A stretch of 64,000 bases of DNA. Source: Mucilaginibacter rubeus. GTDB taxonomy: Bacteria > Bacteroidota > Bacteroidia > Sphingobacteriales > Sphingobacteriaceae. The number at the start of each line of letters is the position of its first letter. Within the stretch, counting starts at the first letter, position 1. The stretch is taken from the NCBI RefSeq assembly GCF_014643835.1, contig NZ_BMKD01000010.1:82479-146478 (forward strand), in the 5' to 3' direction. A program made the position numbers and the translations under genes. Shown here piece after piece: positions 5,066 to 39,684 of the stretch. The notes under the pieces were generated by a model. It made no database searches and had not been told where the DNA came from. It was given only the letters and a program-made list of their open reading frames with translations.

Positions 5066-5427
5066 ATTTCGCAGTCAAAAGTACTAAGTCGAAAGTCAAA
5101 AGTGGAATGTATTTTTAATTAGGGCGATGCAATGATATAAACAGGAAAATTGCTTTTAAAATCTATGTTGACATGAGGCGAATGGATAAGAAATTTTTAC
5201 ACTATTTTTTTCAAATTAATCGAATTACACGAATTTTAAATTTATGTAATTGAAAAATTGGTGTAATTCGATTAATTGTGGTAAGAATGAAGATAATTCG
5301 TGTGGAAATTTTATTGCTATTTTTTCAATGCATCGAATTACCTCAAAGGCGATTTCCCTGATAATATATTTATTAATTTTGAAGCCCGACTCAAGACTCA
5401 TAACTTTCGACTTAAGACTTCGCAAAA
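5066..5427. other. Intergenic region with inverted repeat
   Basis: This is the divergent promoter region of holA and the nuclease-fold gene. It contains AAGTCGAAAGTC-type short repeats at both ends (about 5083-5098 and 5388-5418) and the perfect 17-base inverted repeat described separately at 5214-5277. A 66-codon open frame on the minus strand is made largely of this repeat and is not called as a gene. Confidence 0.5.
5214..5277. repeat. Perfect 17-base inverted repeat
   Basis: AATTAATCGAATTACAC (5214-5230) is exactly the reverse complement of bases 5261-5277, with a 30-base loop. A related half-copy (CTCGAATTAAACGAATTTG) occurs near 5894. It is one of several palindromic intergenic families in this window. 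Confidence 0.75.
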
Positions 5428-8272: not shown

Positions 8273-8360
8273 GATTTGAGATATGAGACGTGAGATATGA
8301 GACAAGGCTCTAAACCTTCAATTATCTCAAATCTCCTATCTCAAATCTCCTATCTAAACA
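8273..8360. repeat. GAGATATGAGAC / TATCTCAAATCTCC short-repeat hairpin
   Basis: TTTGAGATATGAGACGTGAG and later CTCAAATCTCCTATCTCAAA form an imperfect inverted repeat directly ahead of the repeat-protein gene. Similar short-word repeats (TTAGAGGTTAGAGATTAG) lie at 30650-30668 after rlmD. Confidence 0.5.
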
Positions 8361-8362
8361 AA

Positions 8363-9499
8363 ATGGTTTTTGAAGAATTTTTAAAGAAGAAAAGAATTGA
8401 CCTTGCCGCCCTGCAACAGGGCGAACCTGCTTTGTTTTCTGAATTTAAAGATCACTTTGAACAGATGGGCGAAAAAAGCTTCGACCATACCAAAAAATAC
8501 TGGTTTAATAAACTAAGGCGGCGGTTCCCGGTTCCGCTTGAAGTTAAAACCGAAAAAGCACATATCAAAAACCCGCTGGCCGAACAAACCATAACCGAAA
8601 GTTTAACAGAACCCGCTACGCCGGCCAAAGTTGGCTTTACGCCGAAGTTCCGTCCGGCTGCACCAAAACCTACGGCTCCAGCCGAAGAATCTATACAACG
8701 GGCAGTTGCACCCCCAACGTCAGAACCTTCATCCCCTGAAATTGCCTCCAAACCAGCGTTCAAACCTCGCTTTAACCCGGCTATGGCAAAAGCTAAACCA
8801 GCAGTGAGCGAAGCATCACCTGAAAACGAAAAGGAACAACAAGCTGGGGCTCCTGCTACAGAAACACCTGCACCAACTGCCAAACCTGGCTTTAAACCAC
8901 GTTTCAACGCTGCCATGGTAAAACCCAAACCAGCTGAAACAGAAACACAGGCAGAAAACAAAAAGGAAGAAACTCCGACAACTCCACCTGCGGATGCACC
9001 AGCAGCTAAAATGGGATTTAAACCACGCTTTAATGCCGGTATGGTAAAACCCAAACCGGTAGAAAATGAAGCGCCTGCTGAAGAGACAAAAGAGGATGCT
9101 CCGCCTGAAGAGCCTCAAACGCCGGTAACCGAAGCACCTGCTCCTAAAATGGGGTTCAAACCTCGTTTTAACGCGGCCCTGATGAAACCTAAACAGGCTG
9201 AATCGGAACAACCAGTTGAAGAGGCAAAACCATCAGCCGAGATTCCGCAACCAACGATTGAAGAAGTAAAACCGGGTTCTGAACCTCCCGCACCAAAGCT
9301 TGGCTTTAAACCACGCTTTAATGCAGCTGCAATGAAGCCGACAGTTCCTGAAGCCGAAGCATCCGCAGAAGATAAAAAAGAGGATACTCCAACTAAAGAA
9401 CCTCAGTCGCCGGCTAAAGAAACTCCCGCACCTAAATTGGGATTCAAGCCACGTTTTAACGCCAAAAATCTTCCTAAAAAATCAGAGGGAGAAGAATAG
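8363..9499 (+). CDS. Repeat protein with seven GFKPRFN-type motifs
   Basis: From ATG 8363 the product is 378 residues; the frame is open 22 codons further up, through a repeat, so I chose the ATG 8363. Residues 1-65 form an alpha-helical, basic N-terminal domain (VFEEFLKKKRIDL, HTKKYWFNKLRRRFP). The rest is seven copies of a basic motif of the form xGFKPRFNAxMxKPKP, separated by 25-35 residue linkers rich in Glu, Ala and Pro. Codon use differs among the copies while the motif is kept. There is no signal peptide or membrane segment. Arginine, lysine and aromatic residues suggest nucleic acid or ribosome binding, which is inference. I do not recognise a named family. Confidence 0.75.
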   Translation: MVFEEFLKKKRIDLAALQQGEPALFSEFKDHFEQMGEKSFDHTKKYWFNKLRRRFPVPLEVKTEKAHIKNPLAEQTITESLTEPATPAKVGFTPKFRPAAPKPTAPAEESIQRAVAPPTSEPSSPEIASKPAFKPRFNPAMAKAKPAVSEASPENEKEQQAGAPATETPAPTAKPGFKPRFNAAMVKPKPAETETQAENKKEETPTTPPADAPAAKMGFKPRFNAGMVKPKPVENEAPAEETKEDAPPEEPQTPVTEAPAPKMGFKPRFNAALMKPKQAESEQPVEEAKPSAEIPQPTIEEVKPGSEPPAPKLGFKPRFNAAAMKPTVPEAEASAEDKKEDTPTKEPQSPAKETPAPKLGFKPRFNAKNLPKKSEGEE

Positions 9500-35652: not shown

Positions 35653-36507
35653 GTGACTAAAAATACATTTTTCCGTAAAAAAGTTACACTTAATGCCGGG
35701 GGCCGATTGATTGATCTTTCATCACCAAAAGTAATGGGCATTATCAATATAACCCCCGATTCGTTTTTTGCCGATAGCCGCAAACCCGGCGTTGATGAAG
35801 CCTTAAAACAAGCAGAAAAAATGCTGACTGATGGTGCAACATTTTTGGACGTCGGCGCGTATTCATCACGCCCCGGAGCGGTTGATATTTCAACACAGGA
35901 AGAAACAGACAGGTTATTGCCTGTTGTTGAAGCTATTGCTGCCCAATTCCCGGAAGCTATCATGTCGATAGATACTTTTCGGGCAAAGGTTGCCGAAGCG
36001 GCAATAAAAGGCGGCGCGCATATTATCAATGATATATCAGGCGGCATGCTTGATGGTGACATGTTTGCTACTGTTGCCCGCCTGCAAGTGCCATATATTT
36101 TGATGCACATGAAAGGCACACCGCAAACCATGAACCAACTGACCGAATATGATGATGTATTTCGCGAAGTGTTTGATTATTTTCTCTCGAAATACAGCGA
36201 ATTAAAACGGCTTGGCGTACATGACGTGATCCTCGACCCGGGCTTTGGCTTTGCCAAAAAAGCGGAGCATAGCTATGAACTGATGAGCCGGATGAATGAA
36301 TTTAATATGTTGGGTTTACCGGTGCTTACTGGTATCTCCCGTAAAAGGATGATCTACGGTTTACTGGGGAATACGGCGGAAGAGGCGTTGAATGGTACTA
36401 CAGCTTTAAATACTATTGCATTGACGAAAGGTACCAATATTTTGAGGGTACATGATGTGAAAGAGGCCGTGGAGGCGGTGAAGATTTGGGAGGCTTGCCA
36501 GATTTGA
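35653..36507 (+). CDS. folP: Dihydropteroate synthase
   Basis: Condenses 4-aminobenzoate with hydroxymethyl-dihydropterin diphosphate in folate synthesis, the sulfonamide target. The start is a GTG at 35653; no ATG is available before 35734, which would delete part of the first strand. The 284 residues show VMGIINITPDSFFADSRKPG (26-45), GATFLDVGAYSSRPGA, IMSIDTFRAKVAE, HIINDISGG, ILDPGFGFAKKAEH and LTGISRKRMIY. Length and order are normal. It is divergent from the DUF1599 operon. Confidence 0.94.
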   Translation: MTKNTFFRKKVTLNAGGRLIDLSSPKVMGIINITPDSFFADSRKPGVDEALKQAEKMLTDGATFLDVGAYSSRPGAVDISTQEETDRLLPVVEAIAAQFPEAIMSIDTFRAKVAEAAIKGGAHIINDISGGMLDGDMFATVARLQVPYILMHMKGTPQTMNQLTEYDDVFREVFDYFLSKYSELKRLGVHDVILDPGFGFAKKAEHSYELMSRMNEFNMLGLPVLTGISRKRMIYGLLGNTAEEALNGTTALNTIALTKGTNILRVHDVKEAVEAVKIWEACQI

Positions 36508-36508
36508 G

Positions 36509-36651
36509 CTACGGCGGCCGGGAGGCCGCTTGATAGTTTGGCACTCGGCAGGAGTCGAGCGCCGGCGCCTTTTGTTTATTCCCCAACATACACCACGCTG
36601 ACGCTCGGCTCTTGCCGAGTGTCGACTATTTCGCGGCCTCCCGGCCGCAGT
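36509..36651. repeat. REP-like palindrome, left copy
   Basis: Outer arms 36515-36529 (CGGCCGGGAGGCCGC) and 36633-36647 pair perfectly over 15 bases. Inner arms 36543-36560 (ACTCGGCAGGAGTCGAGC) and 36604-36621 pair over 16 of 18 bases. It begins two bases after the folP stop. It shares order and motifs with the right copy at 37219-37362. Confidence 0.8.
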
Positions 36652-36666
36652 AACCAAAACAAAAGG

Positions 36667-37194
36667 TCACTCATCAACCTTAAACACAGAGTCAGGATTA
36701 GCGCTACTATACACATATGCTATCGGATCATTAACGATCATCGCTTCAACCGGGTTATTATGGATATACTCTGCCTTCTGGTCAAATACTTTGGCAGTTA
36801 TTAGTTCAGTAGGATGCATGGTCTTTTGCCAAAATTGATATTCGCTGTTTTGTTGAGTGCTGTTCGCGAAGTACCTGAACATGTAAAGCAGCCATTCTTT
36901 TCTGCTTTCCGTATAGCTATTAGTTATCAATGCTATAATACGCTTAGCTGTATAACTTTTGAGGTCTCTTATAATTTGCGGAAGTTTTGCTTCCTCCCAT
37001 TCAATAATCAAATGAATATGGCTACTCATTATACAATAAGCATACACCTTTAAGCCCTTGTTTTTTCTGCAAAATTCCAGGTTATTTAAAAACTCTTCGC
37101 AATATTCAGACCGGGTGAAAATATCTATCCAGCCAACTATCGTGAGGGTTACGAAAAACGGGCGATCTGTATTGGCTTTTCTGAATTCTGATAT
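36667..37194 (-). mobile_element. REP-associated tyrosine transposase (RAYT), start codon lost
   Basis: Y1/IS200-like single-strand nuclease family (RAYT). The in-frame coding region runs from 37194 to 36667 (175 codons): SEFRKANTDRPFFVTLT, IVGWIDIFTRSEYCEEF, then the HUH metal motif MSSHIHLI and the catalytic-Tyr region EYIHNNPVEAM. The first in-frame codon after a stop is ATA at 37192-37194, where homologs have ATG (recall). The only usable in-frame starts are GTG 37047 and ATG 37029, both of which remove the first strand. It is flanked by two REP-like palindromes, forming one unit from 36509 to 37362. Probably inactive unless an unusual start is used. Confidence 0.8.
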
Positions 37195-37218
37195 GATTTA
37201 GGTTTGATTTTAGGCTTT

Positions 37219-37362
37219 GACTACGGCCGCCAGAGGCCGCTTGATAGTCGATACTCGGCTGGAGCCGAGCATCAGCGTGTTTTTTTTATATATTTTTTTA
37301 TTATTCCGCCACCGCTCGGCTCCAGCCGAGTGGTAACTATCCCCAGGCCTCCGGCCTGCTAC
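37219..37362. repeat. REP-like palindrome, right copy
   Basis: Inner arms ACTCGGCTGGAGCCGAGC (37253-37270) and 37314-37331 pair perfectly over 18 bases. Outer arms GGCCGCCAGAGGCCGC (37225-37240) and CAGGCCTCCGGCCTGC (37344-37359) pair imperfectly. GAGGCCGCTTGATAGT is shared with the left copy, in the same orientation. Confidence 0.8.
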
Positions 37363-37394: not shown

Positions 37395-38936
37395 TTAATT
37401 CTTAAAGTCCTGATTCTGAAAAGCCCCCTCCATCATTTTCAAAATAGCGTCCACATATTCCCTGTCATTAGCCAGGCGTGGTACCTTATGCTGACCGCCT
37501 AATTTTCCTTTTTCTCTCATCCAGTTAAAGAAAGTACCATCAGGTGCGCGGCGTACCATCGGGCGGCGAAGGGCCAGGTCTTTAAAACGTTTGGCGTCGT
37601 AGTCAGAATTGATACGGCGCAGGGTTTCATCCAACAGGTCAACAAAACGCTCAAACTCGGCCGGTTTCTTTTCAAATTCAATAATCCACTCATGGGCACC
37701 GCATTCATTGCCGTTAAAATAAACAGGAGCTGCCGTGTATTCCCTGATAACGGCACCGGTTTGTGAACAGGCTTCGTCCAATGCACGTTCGGCATTGTCA
37801 ATGATTACCTCCTCGCCAAAGGCATTGATAAAATGTTTGGTACGACCTGTGATCTGGATCCTGAACGGCGAAAGCGACGAAAACTTAATGGTATCCCCTA
37901 TCATGTAGCGCCACAGGCCCGCATTGGTTGATATGATGAGCGCGTAGTTTTTGTTCAGTTCCACCTCATCAAGGGTAAGCGTTTCAGGGTTTTCATCGTG
38001 AAGGTTTTCGATCGGTAAAAACTCGTAAAAAACACCGTAATCAAGCATCAGCAGCATATCGCCGGGCTCTTTGGTATCTTGTATGCCGAAGAAGCCTTCG
38101 GAAGCGTTATAATTTTCGAGGTAATACATATCCTCGTGAGGGATCAGCTTTTTAAACTGCTCGCGGTAAGGTGTAAAATTCACCGCGCCATGGAAATACA
38201 TTTCCAGGTTGGGCCAAATTTCAAGCAGGTTATTTTTGCCGGTGATCTCCAGGATGCGTTTAAATAACACCAGGTTCCAGGTGGGTACGCCGCTGATACT
38301 GGTAACATTAACATCCTTGGTAGCATGGGCTATCTTCTCAATTTTTTCCTCAAAGTTTTCGAGCAGGGCGATGTCTAAATGCGGTGTACGGTGAAATTCG
38401 GCCCACATGGGCAGGTTTTTCATGATCACCGCCGAAAGATCTCCAAAGGAAGTATCCGGACTTAACTGACTGATCTGGTGACTGCCCCCAAGTGTTAGGA
38501 TCTTCCCCGTAAACATACGGGCGTTAGGCTGATTATTGAAATAAATGGTAAGTAGGTCCTTACCGCCTTTAAAGTGGCATTCTTCCAACGCTTCTTCACT
38601 TACCGGGATAAATTTGCTCCTGTCGCTGGTAGTACCTGATGATTTGGCAAACCAACGGATCTCTGAAGGCCACAGCACATTTTTTTCACCTTTAAGCATC
38701 CGCTCAATGTAAGGCTTTAACGTATCGTAATTTTGTATAGGCACCCGTTCCTTGAACTGGTTCAGGTTTTCGATACTTTTATATTGGTATTTTTTTCCCC
38801 ACTCTGTATTTTCGGCAACCGATACCAGTTGCTCAAACCATTCTTCCTGCACTTCATTAGGGTACTTCATAAAAAGCTCTATCTGGTGGATACGCTTTTT
38901 CATGAACCAGGTAAATACGGAGTTAAAGAGGGTCAT
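37395..38936 (-). CDS. GH3 auxin-responsive-promoter family protein (acyl-amido synthetase-like)
   Basis: A 513-residue protein from ATG 38936 (the frame is open to 38987 but enters lptB). It belongs to the bacterial GH3 family, an acyl-adenylate-forming fold related to plant acyl-acid amido synthetases: WFAKSSGTTSDRSKFIPVSEEAL, LENYNASEGFFGIQD, WRYMIGDTIKFSSLSPFRIQITGRTKHFINAFGEEV. The C-terminal domain has RAPDGTFFNWMREKGKLGGQHKVPRL. Such proteins are universal in Bacteroidota, often beside lptB, but their substrate is unknown. The gap to lptB is 7 bases. Confidence 0.9.
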   Translation of the reverse strand: MTLFNSVFTWFMKKRIHQIELFMKYPNEVQEEWFEQLVSVAENTEWGKKYQYKSIENLNQFKERVPIQNYDTLKPYIERMLKGEKNVLWPSEIRWFAKSSGTTSDRSKFIPVSEEALEECHFKGGKDLLTIYFNNQPNARMFTGKILTLGGSHQISQLSPDTSFGDLSAVIMKNLPMWAEFHRTPHLDIALLENFEEKIEKIAHATKDVNVTSISGVPTWNLVLFKRILEITGKNNLLEIWPNLEMYFHGAVNFTPYREQFKKLIPHEDMYYLENYNASEGFFGIQDTKEPGDMLLMLDYGVFYEFLPIENLHDENPETLTLDEVELNKNYALIISTNAGLWRYMIGDTIKFSSLSPFRIQITGRTKHFINAFGEEVIIDNAERALDEACSQTGAVIREYTAAPVYFNGNECGAHEWIIEFEKKPAEFERFVDLLDETLRRINSDYDAKRFKDLALRRPMVRRAPDGTFFNWMREKGKLGGQHKVPRLANDREYVDAILKMMEGAFQNQDFKN

Positions 38937-38943
38937 AGGGTTA

Positions 38944-39684
38944 TTATTGAGGAAAAACCTTTCGTTTAAGCACAAAGTTTGCCCCAAGATACACTTTCCT
39001 CACCATTTCATTCTCAGCCAATACCTCGGGCACGCCTGATTCTAATATTTTACCTTCAAAAAGCAGGTATGCGCGGTCGGTAATCGACAGCGTTTCCTGC
39101 ACGTTGTGGTCGGTTATTAATATACCGATGTTGCGGGTACGCAGTTTGGCCACCATCGCCTGGATCTCCTCTACCGCGATCGGGTCAACCCCGGCAAAAG
39201 GCTCATCCAACAGGATAAAGTTTGGCTCGGCAGCAAGCGCGCGGGCTATTTCTGTACGGCGGCGCTCACCACCCGATAGCAGGTCGCCCCGGTTTTTACG
39301 CACTTTGTGCAAGCTAAACTCATCGATCAGTTCTTCCAGCTTATCTTTTTGCTTTTCTTTAGACATATCGCCCATTTCCAGCACGGCCTTGATGTTATCC
39401 TCAACCGAAAGCTTCCTGAATACCGACGCTTCCTGCGCCAGGTAGCCTATGCCCTTTTGGGCACGGCGGTACATGGGGTCCTGGGTTATGTTTTCATTAT
39501 CCAGGTGAATAGTGCCTTCGTTAGGTTTTATCAAACCTACTATCATATAAAATGATGTGGTTTTACCCGCGCCGTTAGGCCCAAGTAAACCAACAATTTC
39601 GCCCTGTGCCACATCAAAAGACACGTCGTTAACAACGGTACGCTGCTTGTATTTCTTAACTAAATTATCTGCTCTTAGTATCAT
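38944..39684 (-). CDS. lptB: LPS export ABC transporter ATP-binding protein
   Basis: ATPase that drives extraction of lipopolysaccharide from the inner membrane with LptF/G. The 246 residues contain the Walker [20 protein letters not shown] (32-50), the signature [17 protein letters not shown], Walker [17 protein letters not shown] and the switch His in [11 protein letters not shown]. Length is normal. It is first in a two-gene minus-strand unit with the GH3 gene. The following 150 bases hold ATGAACC-type short repeats and the AATCAACAGAATC repeat. Confidence 0.93.

Follow-up and report, generated by a model that had tools for sequence, protein, structure and literature searches.

A probable REPtron with a two-hairpin repeat unit between folP and a GH3-family gene of Mucilaginibacter rubeus

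The stretch of DNA analyzed here (64 kb; the window) contains a locus best explained as a REPtron, consisting of a gene predicted to encode a RAYT of TnpA-Y1 subclass 2.6 (RAYT group 5) and its cognate REPs, a reading to which we give a probability of about 0.85. Four copies of a repeat of about 55 nt, matched by a family model (R1), lie at window positions 36507 to 37360 in the order + − RAYT + −. Unit 1 (36507 to 36567, + strand, read from H1 to H2; 60.7 bits, with unit 1 itself in the R1 training set) is the outer unit on the folP side, and unit 2 (36596 to 36655, − strand; 59.5 bits) has its H1 towards the RAYT stop codon. Beyond the RAYT coding sequence (36667 to 37194, − strand), unit 3 (37219 to 37277, + strand; 58.0 bits) has its H1 towards the RAYT start, and unit 4 (37307 to 37360, − strand; 57.1 bits) is the outer unit on the GH3 side. 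The site is bordered on the left by a gene for a folP-like pterin-binding enzyme (35653 to 36507, + strand; PF00809, 251 bits) and on the right by a GH3-family gene (37395 to 38987, − strand; PF03321, 233 bits over 37398 to 38942). No further match to the family model was found in the 64-kb window at E values up to 1.

The first-pass annotation had reported two structured palindromes flanking a RAYT-family gene and had read the whole as a REPtron. The structures are present at the positions that it reported, but each is an inverted pair of ~55-nt units, giving four units in total, and the REPtron reading is supported by dispersed copies, by the association of the repeat family with RAYTs in the genus, and by the NCBIfam name of the protein, with the repeat being a two-hairpin REP in four units. 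The shared core GAGGCCGCTTGATAGT is exact in both blocks (36522 to 36537 and 37233 to 37248), and, read directly from the sequence, the inner arms pair over 16 of 18 positions on the left and 18 of 18 on the right, as had been described. With up to three mismatches, GAGGCCGCTTGATAGT has five matches in the window (0.37 expected; 0 of 100 shuffles reached five). Folded as single-stranded DNA, the two blocks had z values of −10.5 and −8.3, and equal stability was reached in 0 of 200 shuffles. That the palindromes reflect chance or local duplication and belong to no family is already refuted by the genome-wide copies in the nearest relative, the hits in a further 11 genomes within the genus, and the covariation of the stems, and we give this explanation practically no weight.

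Each REP unit consists of a hairpin (H1), an unpaired linker with a near-invariant ATA, and a second hairpin (H2), whose stem contains an A.C mismatch and whose loop is NGGA. In unit 1, H1 reads GCGGCC-GGGA-GGCCGC, the linker is TTGATAGT, with ATAG at 36533 to 36536, and H2 reads CTCGGC-AGGA-GTCGAG. H2 of unit 3 has perfect arms and the mismatch A37253.C37270, and arm letters of that unit are GAT/ATC in the window versus GAC/GTC in the orthologous unit of the nearest relative, a compensatory change in the pairwise alignment. H1 of unit 4 is of a second type (CAGGCC-GGA-GGCCTG).

Both stems of the unit covary. Covariation was scored over six pairs in H1 and nine pairs in H2, in an alignment of 146 matches (144 distinct) from 80 sources, drawn from REP places of four genomes and from RAYT loci, with a few loci omitted. 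Paired cells made up 95.4% of the total, compared with 85.8% in shuffled alignments and 30 to 42% in slid controls, and 164 cells showed double changes, compared with 44.9 (sd, 5.3) after shuffling; 0 of 500 shuffles were as high in either measure, a significance that the shuffles overstate since the aligned rows are related, whereas the slid controls retain that relatedness. The number of base pairs with any double change was a weaker count (9 versus 6.3 shuffled; 10 of 500 shuffles as high), and further pair types numbered 29 versus 23.4 (1 of 500 shuffles as high). The outermost H1 pair was unpaired in 29 of the 146 sequences. The tag was ATA in 143 of 146 (ATAG in 99, ATAA in 41, and ATAT in 3; 3 had other letters); it is of the ATA type, and the GT[AG]G found at the 5′ hairpin foot of canonical GTAG-family REPs is not present. 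Among the 140 sequences with both mismatch letters present, the H2 mismatch was A.C in 132, G.C in 5, and A.T in 3; the H2 loop was NGGA in 127 of 146 sequences, and the H1 loop ended in GA in 139.

The RAYT frame is open on the − strand from a TAA at 37200 to 37198 to a TGA at 36669 to 36667, and the coding sequence comprises 175 codons from an ATA at 37194 to 37192. Matches to NF047646 (REP_Tyr_transpos, the NCBIfam model for REP-associated tyrosine transposases; 90.5 bits, cutoff 80) and PF01797 (Y1_Tnp; 37 bits, cutoff 23) bear out the assignment of the gene to the RAYT family, but its first codon is not a standard start, and it lies on the − strand. The predicted protein contains SHIH at residues 58 to 61 (HUH residues H59-I60-H61), WQ at 122 and 123, YIHNNP at 143 to 148 (tyrosine Y143), and SS at 163 and 164. 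Residues H59, H61, W122, Q123, and Y143, the Y1 HUH core, were invariant in 18 aligned sequences, an alignment that omits many rows, including L176 and L178, which have a stop in the given frame. In the features given in the openly readable text on subclass 2.6 and RAYT group 5 (PMC6006769), the protein agrees in phylum (Bacteroidota kin), length (175 residues versus 179 in print), the WQ and YIH[QN]NP motifs, an HUH-to-tyrosine distance of 82, and a C-terminal SS. Unlike the NH[LIV]H motif described there, the window and four of five aligned relatives have SHIH, with NHIH in G035; the departure affects the letter preceding the HUH residues, not a catalytic residue. Judged from these motifs, the protein fits TnpA-Y1 subclass 2.6 (RAYT group 5) except for SHIH. 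A PDB sequence search returned nothing significant (IS200-type transposases at E values of 0.14 to 0.17, with an unrelated protein above them in one search), and the AlphaFold model of the RAYT was weak (pLDDT, 58). Phage records contained no RAYT match and plasmid records contained five (best, 57.7%), so that the records searched gave no sign of RAYT travel on phages or plasmids.

The start position (37192 to 37194, − strand) is ATA in the window, compared with ATG in 18 of 18 other homologues, one of which (L166) carries a stop at codon 13 and was kept in the 19-row tree described below. No ATG, GTG, or TTG occurs in frame upstream of the ATA, and the longest open reading frame (ORF) initiated by one of these codons in the RAYT frame is truncated (126 amino acids). 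No stop or frameshift was found inside the gene. Between the window and M. gossypii, dN was 0.043 and dS 0.469 (ratio, 0.091; the same comparison gave 0.075 for folP and 0.015 for the GH3 gene), and three amino acid changes fell on the window branch, five on the M. gossypii branch, and six could not be polarized. The low dN/dS and these branch counts indicate that purifying selection acted on the protein until recent times; the start alone looks damaged. The ongoing constraint suggested by the first-pass annotation is qualified by the absence of an ATG start in the window, although the RAYT dN/dS is 0.09.

Given ATA in place of ATG, the window gene is probably newly silenced or weakly translated. 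A stronger version, compatible with the REPtron reading, is that the locus is already dead, the RAYT being a pseudogene and the repeats relics; we consider the chances of this evenly balanced. The replaced start and the lack of an in-frame ATG, GTG, or TTG upstream point that way, as do three relatives (G018, G022, and G028) that retain REP units at the folP-GH3 site without the gene. The intact frame, the dN/dS of 0.091, and the few changes on the window branch argue the other way; ATA is able to start translation weakly, which would leave some product possible, and the ATA may be a sequencing error. The base differences from the M. gossypii gene (L059; window positions 36670 to 37194) are spread unevenly, with 6, 21, and 27 in the first, second, and last thirds, and may reflect past recombination.

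Copy numbers of the REP were obtained from the genomes of relatives. The nearest genome compared was that of M. gossypii Gh-67 (G001; 20% of the sampled 31-mers of the window in common), which has a folP-GH3 locus with an ATG-started RAYT 91 to 92% identical to that of the window. Model R1, which derives from 19 units found in the window or in G001 and can miss more diverged REPs elsewhere, matched at least 36 copies in G001 at E values below 1e-8, as well as four weaker ones; the count is a lower bound, with 150 of 1,486 first-look candidates scored. Four of the 36 strong copies are at the RAYT, and at least 32 lie at 19 other places, mainly in intergenic DNA and as inverted pairs. The first-pass annotation had proposed a search for further genomic copies and for their avoidance of coding regions; both were found in this relative, where 1 of the 19 other places has its midpoint inside an ORF of at least 150 amino acids and 3 of 19 inside one of at least 100.

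Across G001, G014, G032, and G018, 126 units were found in 77 clusters. Inverted pairs with a gap of up to 45 nt numbered 46, comprising 42 in − + order (H1s inward) and 4 in + − order; the latter were the two RAYT flanks of G001, the folP-GH3 site of G018, which has no RAYT, and the junction within a tandem duplicate in G032. Wider gaps occurred in three pairs, one in − + order (97 nt) and two in + − order (118 and 176 nt). The inner units on either side of the RAYT, read as − RAYT +, have the polarity of the dispersed − + pairs, with the gene lying between the two units. Apart from the RAYT locus of G001, the four genomes contained 75 REP places (19, 19, 21, and 16, respectively), whose midpoints fell inside an ORF of at least 150 amino acids in 7 cases, compared with 87% of control positions, and inside one of at least 100 amino acids in 17 cases, compared with 89 to 91% of control positions.

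For 12 of the 19 REP places in G001 other than the RAYT locus, an orthologous REP place is present in one or more of G014, G018, and G032 (in one case by a single flank), which indicates that many REP copies are old. Other places differed among relatives. At L236, the matching place in G014 and G018 has no REP; at L270, the REP is present at the matching place in G028 and absent from G001 and G032, and the G014 gap has no model match. At L292, the G014 place holds a broken piece of REP, which makes loss likelier there than an empty site, and G032 and G018 have other repeats at that place. Exact insertion boundaries were not obtained at L236, L292, or L270, where the flanks contain too many indels. 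A RAYT remnant was sought between the wide + − REPs of L241 and L275 and rejected, there being no RAYT match; another dispersed intergenic repeat of about 100 nt, TGTCATTGCGAGG...CGCAATGACA, sits between the two REPs in both. That repeat, which occurs in several relatives, was also seen in L118, L119, L146, and L239, and its ends have no exact copy in the window. In addition, comparison of G001 L285 (positions 1500 to 1712) with L280 revealed a different two-hairpin element, GCTCGTTTGCAACGAGC ... GCGATTGCATCGC, between the two units of a REP pair in G001; the corresponding pair in G018 lacks the insert. The element resembles those adjoining the RAYT of G002 in L086 and may be the REP of one RAYT family that inserted into the REP of a second family.

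G014, G018, and G032, at least one of which shares each of the 12 places with G001, have no cognate RAYT. This persistence is what would be expected if the REPs were kept by the host for another job, such as transcription termination, mRNA 3′-end protection, or protein binding, with the RAYT as a passenger. The top REP scores in two genomes without a cognate RAYT (G014, 68.7 bits; G018, 68.0 bits) compared with G001 (67.2 bits) agree with this explanation, as does the scarcity of places between divergent genes (9 of 75, compared with 39 tandem and 27 convergent), although the orientation control consisted of only 17 gaps. However, a terminator needs no strand-specific unpaired ATA tag, purine loops, or one-sided A.C mismatch, the REP family goes with the RAYT across the genus, and the same design occurs with other stem letters beside RAYTs of other groups. 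We consider a host function with a passenger RAYT unlikely and favor the REPtron reading.

Among 60 genomes, RAYTs related to that of the window were found in G001 (92% identity), G005 (74%), G019 (72%), G035 (62%), and G031 (59%), all other hits being at most 51%. Each of these five genomes has one RAYT of at least 59% identity, that is, a single full-length gene per REP family, and no near-identical second copy was seen among the 60. REP hits at E values of up to 1e-4 occurred in 12 of the 60 genomes, all within the same genus (37 genomes), in a scan of 90 scored candidates per genome under stricter filters than those of the G001 count. Within the genus, REP hits were present in 5 of 5 genomes with a RAYT of at least 59% identity and in 7 of 32 without (Fisher test, P = 0.0018, uncorrected for kinship). 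G031 is a doubtful member, with one weak REP hit, flanking units seen by eye, and a RAYT grouped with those of Pontibacter and Dyadobacter in the tree; without it, the counts were 4 of 4 and 8 of 33 (P = 0.0075, also uncorrected for kinship).

The seven genomes with REPs and no close RAYT (G007, G014, G018, G022, G023, G028, and G032) keep 4 to 35 copies each, so the persistence of REPs does not need a close RAYT. All seven carry other RAYTs (best hits, 32 to 47%), which may act in trans on these REPs; for one such RAYT in each of five of the genomes, flanking hairpins with different letters were seen by eye. Other RAYTs of the genus (44 to 47% identical; flanks of L066 to L070, L072, L075, and L083) have their own flanking hairpins, and in several of these H1 is richer in AT (AGCT-GAA-AGCT type).

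A RAYT beside GH3, with folP on the other side where in reach, was found in the window, M. gossypii, G019 (L160), and the metagenome-assembled genomes L156 and L157 (in L156, the match was to GH3 only). By reading, G018 and G022 have a + − pair after GH3 without a RAYT, a fused piece is left in G028, and no REP was found at the folP-GH3 site of G014, G032, G029, G011, or G005. From this pattern, relatives without the RAYT at the site appear to have lost the gene while keeping REPs; alternatively, the + − pair at the site may predate the gene. The RAYT of G005 adjoins dnaA and has three REP units by eye, and those of L158, L159, L161, and G035 lie at places without a folP or GH3 match. Of 10 close loci, 5 (the window, L155, L157, L160, and L062) have the full array of four units, and 8 have inward-facing units on both sides of the RAYT, with G005 read by eye. 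In a tree of 19 RAYTs, ten rows grouped together (window, L155 to L161, G005, and G035; support, 96/93) with their inner order left open, so relocation of the gene is indistinguishable from transfer.

Close RAYTs with adjoining REPs at different loci (folP-GH3, dnaA in G005, and others), together with the match in polarity between − RAYT + and the dispersed − + pairs, would also suit a classical IS200/IS605-type transposon in which the RAYT and its two inner flanking units move together. The score against the IS200/IS605 model was well short of its cutoff (NF033573, 22 bits; cutoff, 55), each RAYT-bearing genome among the 60 has one copy of the clade with no near-identical second copy seen, and the genus tree, as noted, does not separate relocation from transfer. 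Such a transposon is improbable here compared with a REPtron.

Beyond the genus, the best 80 of 236 related stretches, from Bacteroidota as far as titles tell, were scanned for mismatch hairpins. Within 300 nt of the RAYT, hairpins with an A.C mismatch, which reads as G.T on the opposite strand, numbered 91 in these 80 loci, compared with 18 for each of the next three mismatch kinds and with 22 A.C hairpins farther off in 2.4 times as much DNA. At least one A.C hairpin lay within 300 nt in 46 of the 80 loci; by identity of the RAYT, these were 16 of 16 at 55% or more, 14 of 28 at 50 to 55%, and 16 of 36 below. The 34 loci without one under the strict rule include Pontibacter L167, L169, and L170, where two hairpins were seen by eye. 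In a rerun of the same 80 loci with slightly different margins (89 A.C hairpins; ATA sought in the 11 nt before the foot), 72 of the 89 had ATA, 58 had an upstream hairpin of 5 bp, and 50 had both, whereas random positions had them at 17%, 17%, and 3%. Both features accompanied 1 of 18, 1 of 19, and 0 of 18 hairpins with other mismatches near RAYTs, and of 26 A.C hairpins away from RAYTs, 12 had ATA and 2 had both. An ATA-tagged A.C hairpin was within 350 nt at 38 of the best 80 loci, on both sides at 20, and in 43 of 58 flanks the nearest such hairpin had its H1 towards the gene. RAYT groups differ widely in their stem letters, which indicates that the REP design is kept while its letters change.

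Taken with published systems, the locus is of a known kind, and its REP is better defined and of unusual two-hairpin form. For Bacteroidetes genes of subclass 2.6, the openly readable text of PMC6006769 describes flanking atypical structures with genome copies, found by manual inspection, that lack GT[AG]G and have weaker secondary structure. The window locus shares the atypical flanking structures and their genomic copies; unlike the structures of that main text, its units form a strongly covarying two-hairpin design with an ATAG/ATAA tag. According to the available text of PMC8266576, Escherichia coli TnpA-REP depends on a GTAG tag and on a bulge in the stem, the C of which is contacted, and IS200/IS605 enzymes use a 5′ guide to select where they cut. 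The window locus resembles the E. coli REPtron described there (TnpA-Ec with y and z REPs) in its 5′ tetranucleotide beside a hairpin, its mismatched C on the 3′ side, and its inverted pairs, whereas E. coli has GTAG at the foot and an AA-GC bulge where the window has ATAG about two nt off, a single A.C, and the extra H1. By analogy, ATAG followed by an A.C hairpin is the E. coli logic in other letters, from which the added H1 differs. Pseudomonas fluorescens REPINs, as characterized in the accessible parts of PMC3116915 and PMC8049555, are likewise dispersed, extragenic inverted doublets with a single-copy RAYT, but belong to another RAYT group and number hundreds of copies compared with tens here.

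Composite structures and gene loss are not new as such, both being present in the text available from PMC3733652. That source reports RAYT-like genes bordered by inverted repeats that are longer and in some cases double, the loss of the REPtron in strains of E. coli, and, in Pseudomonas putida and P. fluorescens, hundreds of copies of degenerate GTAG-1 units joined to another stem-loop. The TIRtrons among these resemble the window locus in combining RAYT-like genes with longer flanking inverted structures, some of them double palindromes; most TIRs are called unrelated to tagged REPs in the accessible text of PMC3733652, whereas a tag-like linker and a fixed two-hairpin design are present here. 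In openly readable texts, supplements and subscription papers aside, no description of the H1-ATA-H2 unit was found.

From the family of the protein and the anatomy of the locus, we infer that the RAYT binds, cuts, and moves the REPs. In this reading, a genome has a single RAYT of this clade, which in several relatives has been passed on together with its site, and the substrate of the enzyme would be the ~55-nt unit folded in single strand, with an H1 of GGCC-NGA-GGCC type and a linker whose last letters, ATAG or ATAA, stand about two nt from the H2 foot. When a replication strand is single-stranded, the enzyme would bind H2 via its loop, the mismatched C, and the ATAG guide and would cut a nearby CT-like dinucleotide through Y143, after which REP pairs (REPINs) would be copied or moved into intergenic DNA. 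The dispersed − + pairs would be the nonautonomous form; at the RAYT, two units facing inward in the same way bracket the gene, and one further inverted unit lies outside each. In a more speculative extension, which is possible though doubtful, the substrate of a Bacteroidota RAYT is composite, made up of a companion hairpin and a second hairpin guided by ATAG, in which A.C replaces the E. coli bulge. The bracketed gene would then be the parent and the − + REPINs its gutted derivatives, the REPtron itself, in addition to the REPIN, would have moved between loci, and the window would represent a stage just after loss of the start and before the deletion found in G018, G022, and G028.

RAYTs have been called domesticated transposases (PMC8049555, in its accessible text), and what maintains them and their REPs is an unsettled question. 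A unit with a defined tag and mismatch offers an exact, testable substrate for a group whose REPs appear in the available text of PMC6006769 only as atypical, and the two-hairpin unit suggests that a tag plus a stem irregularity is the design kept while letters change. A natural test of REP decay without the enzyme is offered by a genus where several relatives lack the RAYT at one known site and still keep its REPs.

Other repeats were observed in the window. Five 109-nt repeats occupy positions 8737 to 9391, four of them 63 to 72% like the reference copy, inside a 401-codon open frame (8294 to 9496, + strand) predicted to encode a Pro/Ala/Glu-rich protein with repeated GFKPRFNA motifs. An AT-rich inverted repeat (31 nt; spacer, 2 nt) is present at 5214 to 5277.
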